Below, one piece after another: positions 17,064-19,773 of a DNA stretch of 64,000 nucleotides. The DNA lies in the NCBI GenBank assembly GCA_012031965.1, contig JAAUSC010000001.1:1-64000 (forward strand), written 5' to 3'. Source of the stretch: Scytonema sp. RU_4_4. Its GTDB lineage: Bacteria; Cyanobacteriota; Cyanobacteriia; Cyanobacteriales; Nostocaceae. Numbering within the stretch: the first letter of the stretch is position 1; each line of letters opens with the position of its first letter. The notes below the pieces were generated by a model. The model made no database searches. It worked only from the letters and a program-made list of their open reading frames with translations, and was not told the origin of the DNA. Position numbers and translations under genes: made by a program.

Positions 17064-17165
17064 AAAACAAAATAAGAAGAAAGAGGTACGAAGAAACGAA
17101 GATGCAAAAATGTCTTCAATCTTCAATCTTCATTTTTCACTCTTCATTTTTTCCTTCTTTTGCCC

Positions 17166-18050
17166 ATGCCTTGGTCTCGGATTGTTAGTGGAATTATTGC
17201 AATAGCCCTTGCTTTGACTGCAACTCTTTTAGGTGGGTGGTATTATACTCTTTTATTTGCGGTTATCATTTTTCTCGGTCAATTAGAATATTTTGATTTG
17301 GTGCGAGCAAAAGGCATGGCTCCGGCTGCTAAAACTACCATGTTTGTCAGCCAAGTCTTGCTGATCATTTGCACTTTGGATGGAGACTTAGCAGATGCTG
17401 TGATGCCCGTGGCTGGTACTTTTATTTGTTTTTATCTGCTGTTTCAGCCAAAAATGGCAACAATTGCGGATATTGCCGCTTCTATTTTGGGGTTATTTTA
17501 TACTGGGTATCTGCCGAGTTACTGGGTACGATTGCGATCGCTCGACGGTACAACTATCAGCAATCTACCTGTTAGTGATTACCTGTCCACAATTTGGACA
17601 AATATAGTACACCAAGACTTTGCCTCTTTACCCCAAGGTCTCACAGGAACAGCACTCACCTTCGTGTGTATTTGGGCTACTGACATTGGTGCTTACATCG
17701 TGGGTAAATTTTTTGGGAAAACCCCTTTATCAGATATTAGTCCTAAAAAAACAGTCGAAGGAGCTGTTTTTGGTATTGCTGCCAGTGTTATCGTCGCTGT
17801 CATTGCAGCATATTATCTCAATTGGTCTAAATTCGCCTTTACTGGTGTCGCAATAGGTTTGCTGATTGGCATTGCTGGTTTATTGGGTGATTTGACCGAA
17901 TCTATGCTCAAACGTGATGCTGGGGTAAAGGATTCAGGGCAGTTAATTCCTGGTCATGGAGGTATCTTGGATCGTACAGATAGCTATATTTTCACTGCTC
18001 CTTTGGTTTATTATTTTGTCACTCTGTTGTTGCCATTGGTGGGAAAGTAG
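17166..18050 (+). CDS. cdsA: Phosphatidate cytidylyltransferase CdsA
   Basis: 294 residues from ATG 17166. CdsA makes CDP-diacylglycerol from phosphatidic acid and CTP, the precursor of phosphatidylglycerol. The protein has about eight hydrophobic helices and the signature near its end: LTESMLKRDAGVKDSG followed by IPGHGGILDRTDSY, where the Asp residues bind the metal and CTP. The start at ATG 17166 (MPWSRIVSG) is preferred to a TTG six bases upstream. About 100 bases separate it from cbiT; the direction is the same, but the spacer (aagaagaaag-type sequence) gives no clear sign of co-transcription. Confidence 0.95.
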   Translation: MPWSRIVSGIIAIALALTATLLGGWYYTLLFAVIIFLGQLEYFDLVRAKGMAPAAKTTMFVSQVLLIICTLDGDLADAVMPVAGTFICFYLLFQPKMATIADIAASILGLFYTGYLPSYWVRLRSLDGTTISNLPVSDYLSTIWTNIVHQDFASLPQGLTGTALTFVCIWATDIGAYIVGKFFGKTPLSDISPKKTVEGAVFGIAASVIVAVIAAYYLNWSKFAFTGVAIGLLIGIAGLLGDLTESMLKRDAGVKDSGQLIPGHGGILDRTDSYIFTAPLVYYFVTLLLPLVGK

Positions 18051-18226: not shown

Positions 18227-18490
18227 TTAGGTATCTGAGGAAGGACGCAAAGCTTTGAGATCCTCCCTTAGTTCCTCTAATTTCTCACCCGATTCTTTGG
18301 CGATTTGAGAGCAAAGGGTTGTTGAAATTAAGCCGGTAGCGGTAGTGACGCTCCCTTCAGAGGCTTTACCAGAAATCAAAAGCCCAGCACCAATTACGCT
18401 GATACCAAGGGAAAGTGCAACTGCTACAACATAGTAGTTGAAAATCTGCCGTGCCTGACGCAGATGCTCATGAAATAGATCTAGCATCAT
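18227..18490 (-). CDS. Small two-helix membrane protein resembling TRADD-N-associated membrane modules
   Basis: 87 residues from ATG 18488-18490: MMLDLFHEHLRQARQIFNYY, then two adjacent hydrophobic segments (VVAVALSLGISVIGAGLLIS and VTTATGLISTTLCSQ) and a basic/acidic helix (KESGEKLEELREDLKAL). An N-terminal amphipathic helix, a hairpin of two membrane helices and a C-terminal coiled helix resemble the TRADD-N-associated membrane modules described with bacterial NACHT/STAND conflict proteins. This rests on recalled pattern only. It is divergent from the next ORF with only ten bases between start codons. An open upstream frame to 18559 overlaps that ORF and is unlikely to be used. Confidence 0.55.
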   Translation of the reverse strand: MMLDLFHEHLRQARQIFNYYVVAVALSLGISVIGAGLLISGKASEGSVTTATGLISTTLCSQIAKESGEKLEELREDLKALRPSSDT

Positions 18491-18500
18491 TTTAAAGTCA

Positions 18501-19019
18501 ATGAAACGCCAAATTGATGCTCTTTTAGCAAAAGATGAAAAATTGCTGCAATTTCTCATTTGGCTTGAGCAAAAGTCAAAGTCTGTAGAGGCGCGTTATA
18601 AACCTGCTGCTATTCGAGCATTCTACCAAAACCTCGACCTCGCCCTCGCCCTCGCCCTCGCCCGAGACCTCGCCCTCGACCTTGCCCTCGACCGAGCCCG
18701 AGCCCTCGACCAAAACCCAGAGTTAAGGCGATCGCTCCAACGACTCAAAGACCAACTGCCCAACCCAGAAGACAAAGAAGTATACAAACAATGGTGGCAG
18801 GAAAACGGTTCAACTTGGACTGAACAACTTAGAGCCGTAATGATTGAACATCGTAATATTGGTCATGATTGGCAATTCACTGATGCTCAAGAGGAACTCC
18901 TGAAGCAGTACTACGATGCTAATAAACTGCTAGTTGATTGCCTCAACAGCGATTGCTACGTAAGTCGGGAAGCTCGCCAGGAGATTGAGGATACATTGCT
19001 GCTGCCAAATGCTACTTAA
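18501..19019 (+). CDS. Stand-alone homologue of the C-terminal helical domain of cyanobacterial NACHT proteins
   Basis: 172 residues. Residues 1-50 (LLAKDEKLLQFLIWLEQK, YKPAAIRAFYQNLDLAL) and 75-172 (LQRLKDQLPNPEDKEVYKQWW, HRNIGHDWQFTDAQEELLKQYY, LLVDCLNSDCYVS) match the alpha-helical tail of cyanobacterial NACHT NTPases as I remember it. Between them is a dipeptide-like run of Ala, Leu, Asp and Arg encoded by a hexamer microsatellite. No NACHT P-loop is encoded here, and the upstream frame is closed by TGA at 18471, so this is a free-standing domain or a relic. Its last 8 bases overlap the end of pilO on the other strand. Confidence 0.6.
   Translation: MKRQIDALLAKDEKLLQFLIWLEQKSKSVEARYKPAAIRAFYQNLDLALALALARDLALDLALDRARALDQNPELRRSLQRLKDQLPNPEDKEVYKQWWQENGSTWTEQLRAVMIEHRNIGHDWQFTDAQEELLKQYYDANKLLVDCLNSDCYVSREARQEIEDTLLLPNAT
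18632..18710. repeat. Hexamer microsatellite (CTCGCC/CTCGAC)n inside the NACHT-C-like ORF
   Basis: About thirteen imperfect hexamers based on ctcg(c/a)c encode a run of Ala-Leu, Asp-Leu and Arg-Asp pairs. Because the unit is six bases, copy-number change keeps the frame and adds or removes two residues, so length can vary without loss of function. Confidence 0.85.
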
Positions 19020-19773
19020 TCTTTGATTGCACTGCTTTCACCGCTGCAATTTCCTCTTGACTCAGTGGCATTAATGCCTGTAACTGAAAAGATGTACTAA
19101 TCAGTGTTGGTCCAACCCTACGTACCAAAACTTTATCCTGTTGAGTGACAGATTCCGGTGACAAACTTGATTGATAATCTCTCACAATCAACAAAGGTTG
19201 TAACCGCTCTATATTGCGGAAAATAGATTGTGTTTGTTCGTAAGTTCCTAGAATTTCAATATTGATACTGCTGCGTTTTAATTTCCCATTCACCAATGAT
19301 CCAAAACTACCATCAGTAATTGGTTCAGCTTTTCCAGAAGGCACATACTTCTTCAGTTTAGCTCTCACTGCATTCTTGAGAATTTGAGTGTTACTAGATT
19401 CAACTAAGCGATTTAAATCCAGCAGGAGAGTATCCAAAGTTTTCTCATTAGCAAATAAAGCTAAAACCTGGAGTTGTTGCTGTTTGGCAAGCGCTTGCTC
19501 CTGTTGTACTTTGTCAATTTGTTTAATGTAAGATTTTTTTTGGTCAATAGCCTGCTGTAATTCGTTCTGTTTTGTTTCCTGCTGTTGAATAGAATCCAAT
19601 AATGGAAACACAAAATTCATCGCTATATAAGCTGCTCCTGCAATTCCTAAAACCCCTAAGATAATGCCGCTAACTTTTGGTGTTAGGGTGATGCCAAAAA
19701 CAACAGGTTGACTTGAGAAAGTTGTATGAAATTCCGTGTCTTCTACAAAATTAAAATCATCACCCAGCGTCAT
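19012..19773 (-). CDS. pilO: Type IV pilus inner-membrane assembly protein PilO
   Basis: 253 residues with one membrane helix (about 32-52, VSGIILGVLGIAGAAYIAM), a long coiled-coil (60-105, QQQETKQNELQQAIDQKKS) and a ferredoxin-like periplasmic domain, the PilO plan. PilM, PilN and PilO form the platform that links the cytoplasmic motor to the outer-membrane secretin and are needed for twitching motility and DNA uptake. Its ATG overlaps the pilN stop as ATGA, so the two are translationally coupled. In most cyanobacteria pilQ follows at once; here the next sequence is a NACHT-like ORF on the opposite strand, and pilQ is absent from the window. Confidence 0.9.
   Translation of the reverse strand: MTLGDDFNFVEDTEFHTTFSSQPVVFGITLTPKVSGIILGVLGIAGAAYIAMNFVFPLLDSIQQQETKQNELQQAIDQKKSYIKQIDKVQQEQALAKQQQLQVLALFANEKTLDTLLLDLNRLVESSNTQILKNAVRAKLKKYVPSGKAEPITDGSFGSLVNGKLKRSSINIEILGTYEQTQSIFRNIERLQPLLIVRDYQSSLSPESVTQQDKVLVRRVGPTLISTSFQLQALMPLSQEEIAAVKAVQSKIK

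Follow-up and report, generated by a model that had tools for sequence, protein, structure and literature searches.

The divergent gene pair that abuts pilO in the DNA analysed here (a 64,000-nucleotide stretch from Scytonema sp. RU_4_4, referred to as the window) is, judging from sequence comparison, very probably the scar left by the deletion of a NACHT gene that is still whole in sister genomes, and it is probably not a new minimal system. The ancestor would have carried a divergent module in which a small two-TM protein faced an HTH-NACHT-NCH2 gene whose end overlapped pilO. In the lineage of the window, ~1.86 kb would then have been lost in a single deletion, at whose junction both flanks have the bases TTAA. 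This loss would have taken in the part of the TM gene coding for the N-terminus, the whole intergenic region, and ~541 codons at the beginning of the NACHT gene, among them those for its HTH and NTPase. Promoters presumably lay in the lost stretch, and the two stumps would not make up a working system. This reading is adopted because both proteins match Pfam families, the whole module exists in three sisters, a junction can be located, the spacing of the pair is that of the window alone, no missing piece turns up elsewhere at sister-like identity, and the genome holds two other broken NCH2 genes. Counted against it are the open frames of the stumps, the 400-contig draft, and a gene on contig C40 that a free NCH2 domain could in principle serve. 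The features of the region are collected in Table 1.

Table 1. Features of the cdsA-pilO region, with positions in the window.
Feature	Position	Strand	Remarks
cdsA (CTP_transf_1)	17160..18050	+	left border of the variable cdsA-pilO gap; Pfam 9.6e-67
5'-truncated CyanoTRADDas_TM (PF20712) gene	18227..18490	-	87 aa; Pfam 3.1e-15; predicted helical hairpin
Deletion junction	18492..18498		TTAA common to both flanks; seven bases with single mismatches allowed
C-terminal stump of an HTH-NACHT-NCH2 gene, from about codon 542	18501..19019	+	172 aa; Pfam NCH2 1.6e-44
pilO, intact	19012..19773	-	8-bp overlap between its end and the NACHT stump

The first-pass annotation described a pair downstream of pilO, with start codons ten bases apart and an 8-base overlap with pilO, and all of this is borne out. 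An alternative start for the TM ORF (ATG at 18559) would give a protein of 110 aa. The overlap with the end of pilO recurs in one sister genome (G001) and, by tblastn, in a second (G003). In Pfam searches, the TM protein matches the whole CyanoTRADDas_TM model, a TRADD-N-associated 2TM domain (56.5 bits against a cut-off of 24.3; positions 1–68 of 68), and AlphaFold2 models it as two long helices at residues 2–39 and 43–81 (pLDDT 75.5, pTM 0.42). The stump consists of a linker, an ALD-rich repeat, and an NCH2 domain (PF22727, NACHT C-terminal helical domain 2), the last matched at 150.4 bits against a cut-off of 27 (positions 1–96 of 96). The earlier description of this ORF as NACHT-C-like therefore stands over the entire model. 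The description of its neighbor as TRADD-N-like came close but has to be corrected to TRADD-N-associated; TRADD-N itself (TRADD-like_N, PF20694) was matched by neither protein at E values up to 10. Under the same limit, neither contains the NACHT P-loop domain (PF05729). That no NACHT ATPase is encoded is likewise true of the locus but not of the genome, which has NACHT genes elsewhere (150 of 250 candidates scored, plus a search with the whole G001 protein). Chance, or a lack of profile similarity, as an account of the pair is rejected by the Pfam matches of both proteins. Weak matches of the TM protein to SLATT_fungal (0.035, below its cut-off) and WD_0736 (0.003), and of the stump to PDC-M23A (0.0027), were not used. 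When the stump was compared with solved structures, nothing better than E 0.23 was obtained.

The genus compared comprises seven genomes, namely that of the window and six sisters of the Brasilonema group (G001–G006). In three of the six sisters (G001, G002, and G005), a TM gene 86–93% identical to that of the window occupies the cdsA-pilO gap. Beside it, in divergent orientation, is a full HTH-NACHT-NCH2 gene, which is 761, 781, and 795 codons long, respectively. The 761-aa protein of G001 contains HTH_3 at residues 19–71, NACHT at 183–333 (PF05729, 2.7e-16), and NCH2 at 664–758, and the window stump aligns to its last 220 residues. Against solved structures, the full protein matches NLRC4 chains only (best E 2.6e-05). 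In G003, the contig ends inside the C-terminal part of the NACHT gene, before cdsA; the latter is seen at the left border in the window and the other five sisters. Just ~46 bp separate cdsA from pilO in G006, with none of the pair in between. The suggestion that the pair could be a decayed conflict island is thus supported by the whole HTH-NACHT-NCH2/TM module at the site in three sisters, together with the deletion junction in the window.

Across the genus, the cdsA-pilO gap (L045, L046, L048, L049, and L050) appears as a cargo hotspot. The gap of G001 holds the TM/NACHT genes alone. That of G004 holds other cargo, including an acetyltransferase (GNAT) gene, and a similar gene lies beside TM/NACHT in G002 and G005. 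In these last two genomes, pilO stops about 14 codons early (G002, L046 3981–4700; G005, L049 3563–4282); G002 also has DNA resembling the pilO tail beyond a short insertion, adjoining the NACHT end.

The junction was located by blastn of the window DNA against G001, in which the left-flank match runs to 18498 and the right-flank match starts from 18492. By direct reading, G001, G002, and G005 share the left flank ...ATTTTAAGGTAAGCG, G005 has ...TTATTAAAGTCAATGAAACACC as its right flank, and the window reads ...ATTTTAAAGTCAATGAAACGCC across the junction; TTAA is present in the window also. On G001 coordinates, ~1.86 kb is missing: the segment coding for the TM N-terminus, the DNA between the two genes, and some 541 codons of the NACHT gene. 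The TM frames of G001, G002, and G005 extend upstream through the residues SDDSHSDAYLK, which are absent from the window, to an ATG 18–48 codons further up. On the other side, the stump is 86% identical to the G001 protein over residues 637–761 and 53% over residues 536–603. The two start codons in the window thus correspond to positions inside the ancestral genes, which makes the ten-base spacing a by-product.

In the window, the earliest start that the divergent gene could use is 10 bp from the TM match. Among 22 relatives with an HTH-headed partner, the distance is 117–337 bp in 21 and 647 bp in the other. All 21 TM homologues examined for this have an in-frame ATG 5–48 codons upstream of the TM match, and 20 of these count as longer; the exception is L082, whose match begins at residue 17 in a broken frame.

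It is highly improbable that the deletion is an assembly artefact and that the organism has a whole NACHT gene at this site. The window genome is known from one draft assembly of 400 contigs, and NACHT genes form repetitive families, both of which would favor such an error; however, the common bases at the junction amount to only 4–7 bp and lie outside the ALD repeat, and the search with the full G001 protein revealed no further piece at sister-like identity in the genome. The best matches to that protein outside the window are on contigs C40 (52%) and C200 (46–50%), with weaker ones besides. The NACHT proteins of the sisters match that of G001 at 76–82%, and since nothing in the genome reaches this level, the lost piece is not on another contig.

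A point against the deletion reading is that neither stump contains a stop or frameshift. Estimates of dN/dS over 95 NCH2 codons, based on too few sites to be informative and conflicting with one another, are 0.42, 0.24, 0.56, and 1.8 for the window against G001, G002, G003, and G005, respectively. Over the first 42 codons, again with too few sites, they are 0.74 (G001), 0.27 (G002), and 0.78 (G005).

Broken NCH2 genes are found elsewhere as well. The window genome has three NCH2 places. Apart from the one in the window, contig C200 (L011 6425–8330) carries a NACHT-NCH2 gene that is split, with a broken frame and its middle missing (tblastn matches to residues 3–250 and 386–758), and contig C146 carries an NCH2 relic of about 27 codons. 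A search of 118 genomes of the family gave, among the 150 matches listed, 130 NCH2 frames of at least 700 aa, 12 of 300–699 aa, and eight of <300 aa, the window included. The seven other short ORFs were read at their loci, and among these, within the matches listed from the 118 genomes, there is no convincing intact stand-alone NCH2 gene. L176 is a NACHT gene without its middle, L178 and L181 are each broken into several frames, L175 is a piece of some 145 codons, and in L177, L179, and L180 the start lies no more than about 170 bp from the end of a contig. With four remnants and three ORFs too close to contig ends to be judged, a family of stand-alone NCH2 genes was rejected for the matches listed. 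A separate decaying copy of the pair was seen in another genus (G076, L182), where frame changes have broken a close TM homologue (84–90% identity, piecewise) as well as the NACHT gene that partners it.

The first-pass annotation also raised the possibility of a minimal partner system working with NACHT proteins encoded elsewhere. In such a two-gene system, the 2TM protein would be the effector, and the free NCH2 would act in trans with a NACHT protein lacking that domain, or as a decoy or dominant-negative. Both ORFs are open and retain their Pfam domains, and what speaks most for the stump having a partner is the HTH-NACHT gene of contig C40 (L194 3517–5265) in the same genome. This gene encodes 582 aa in a 589-aa frame, with NACHT at 5.9e-20 and an HTH_3 match of 0.003, below its cut-off. 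Pfam finds no NCH2 in the protein; NCH2 is thus not universal among NACHT genes. The C40 protein is 52% identical to that of G001 over residues 3–555 and ends ~30 residues beyond the starting point of the window stump, with the 14 overlapping residues at 79% identity. There is no TM gene beside it. Orthologues occur in all seven genomes of the genus, at 80–84% identity over most of the length of the C40 gene in the six sisters, with frames of 561–575 aa in five and two pieces in G003; none of them coincides with any of the 34 sites at which NCH2 was matched in the genus. The genus thus has a stable, conserved HTH-NACHT gene without NCH2.

Against a partner role, the C40 gene is present in G001, G002, and G005 alongside the whole module at pilO, and it follows from this coexistence that the C40 gene needs no free NCH2. 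In addition, both starts in the window are internal to ancestral genes, the intergenic region is gone, and the ten-base arrangement occurs only in the window among the 30 TM loci read. A minimal system therefore has little support: it is unlikely, and we consider it quite improbable in either form.

The absence of pilQ after pilO, where it was expected, is as claimed. A single secretin match was obtained in the window genome, to an intact 727-aa gene on contig C236. A connection between this absence and the pair was nevertheless not upheld. Thirty pilO neighborhoods were read, out of 58 matching places in 57 genomes, and pilQ follows pilO in each of the 23 that belong to other genera; in this genus it does so at none of the seven (in G003, the contig ends soon after pilO). 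On these counts the pair might be thought to have replaced pilQ or displaced it from the operon, but there is next to no likelihood of this, as G004 and G006 lack the module at the site and lack pilQ there too. Furthermore, a pilQ-type secretin frame of 711–744 aa is located elsewhere in six of the seven genomes, including the two without NACHT/TM at pilO; an intact pilQ elsewhere in most relatives with the same arrangement is what the first-pass annotation itself had named as refuting its proposal. No secretin frame was found in G003, which is 89% complete. Since G006 is without the pair and G004 has other cargo, the loss of pilQ linkage is independent of the pair. A further weak secretin match lies in a 583-aa frame in four genomes of the genus. 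The G004 stretch gave two weak matches to PilQ (34% and 29% identity; query residues 27–122), which were rejected as pilQ, being at two large ORFs of the other cargo; the second reaches slightly upstream of the listed start of its ORF.

The pair in itself is ordinary, and it is the divergent 2TM/HTH-NACHT linkage that is worth a separate look. TM matches were obtained in 59 of the 118 genomes, and the best-match loci of 30 were read (the window plus 29 others, L079–L107). At 22 of the 29, the divergent neighbor of the TM gene begins with a common HTH-like head (blastp, E up to 1e-4); the other seven have no such neighbor. The bodies behind the head are of three kinds: ten are NACHT, 11 resemble the HTH-TRADD-N-pentapeptide protein of L092 (itself counted), and one is AAA_35. 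Of 25 partner proteins aligned, 13 match NACHT and ten match TRADD-like_N; the 25 include full-length versions of three that are also present in another form. The window genome has a second TM gene on contig C257 (L012 5585–8335), 22% identical to the first and divergent from an FGE-sulfatase-domain gene whose first residues resemble, by eye, the start of the HTH head.

It is plausible, on gene order and domain content, that a divergent 2TM gene and an HTH-headed gene together form a two-gene conflict module. How the whole module might act can be proposed tentatively, and at somewhat less than even confidence: the HTH-NACHT protein would sense invasion and control or activate the 2TM protein, which would damage the membrane. 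Bacterial NACHT proteins are described as providing defense (PMC12169576). A search of 21 intergenic regions of TM homologues (L103, a short locus, was omitted) gave no convincing inverted-repeat operator, and the regulatory step of the module is therefore unsupported. The best inverted repeat of L088 was reached by one of 40 single-base shuffles, and as 21 regions were tried, it is not evidence. A broader proposal, which we regard as doubtful, is that of an undescribed conflict module of Nostocales in which the 2TM protein stays constant and the divergent, HTH-headed gene can exchange its body (NACHT-NCH2, TRADD-N-pentapeptide, AAA_35, and perhaps FGE-sulfatase). The HTH head would switch the shared intergenic region and so release the effector, the cdsA-pilO gap of Brasilonema would be a site of gain, swap, and loss, and the lost copy in the window may leave a free NCH2 able to meet the NCH2-less HTH-NACHT protein. 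A search of the open-access literature found no divergent linkage of 2TM with HTH-NACHT or HTH-TRADD-N genes, and no paper with the Pfam names or accessions of these families.

Taken at face value, one decayed NACHT gene matters little when the same genome has two more NCH2 genes that are broken. The pair serves as a warning that a tight divergent arrangement need not be a designed system. The linkage of 2TM with HTH-headed NACHT or TRADD-N genes offers a candidate effector and a testable promoter for the NLR-like proteins of cyanobacteria.

Among known families, the TM protein resembles other CyanoTRADDas_TM (PF20712) members in its whole-model match and two predicted helices, and its relatives have a divergent, HTH-headed neighbor; it differs in that its N-terminus was cut by the deletion and no TRADD-N gene adjoins it. 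The stump likewise has the whole-model NCH2 (PF22727) match, at 150 bits, but lacks an NTPase, whereas NCH2 elsewhere occurs mostly in long frames (at least 700 aa in 130 of the 150 matches listed). The whole protein of the sister shares a NACHT domain with bacterial NACHT (NLR-related) antiphage proteins, for example bNACHT25 and EruA, and gives partial matches to the EruA and PDC-S60 models (NCBIfam, PADLOC); such partial NACHT matches were confined to the sister genes. Unlike bNACHT25 and EruA, it has an HTH head, an NCH2 tail, and a divergent 2TM gene, and its EruA score of 56.8 bits is far short of the NCBIfam cut-off of 1000 bits. In the bacterial TRADD-N systems covered in section 9 of Kaur et al. 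2021 (PMC8195603), an ECF-like HTH is among the N-terminal parts of the TRADD-N proteins and pentapeptide repeats are among the C-terminal parts. The partners of eleven TM homologues resemble such an HTH-TRADD-N-pentapeptide protein, whereas the sisters of the window have NACHT-NCH2 in the place that TRADD-N-pentapeptide would occupy.
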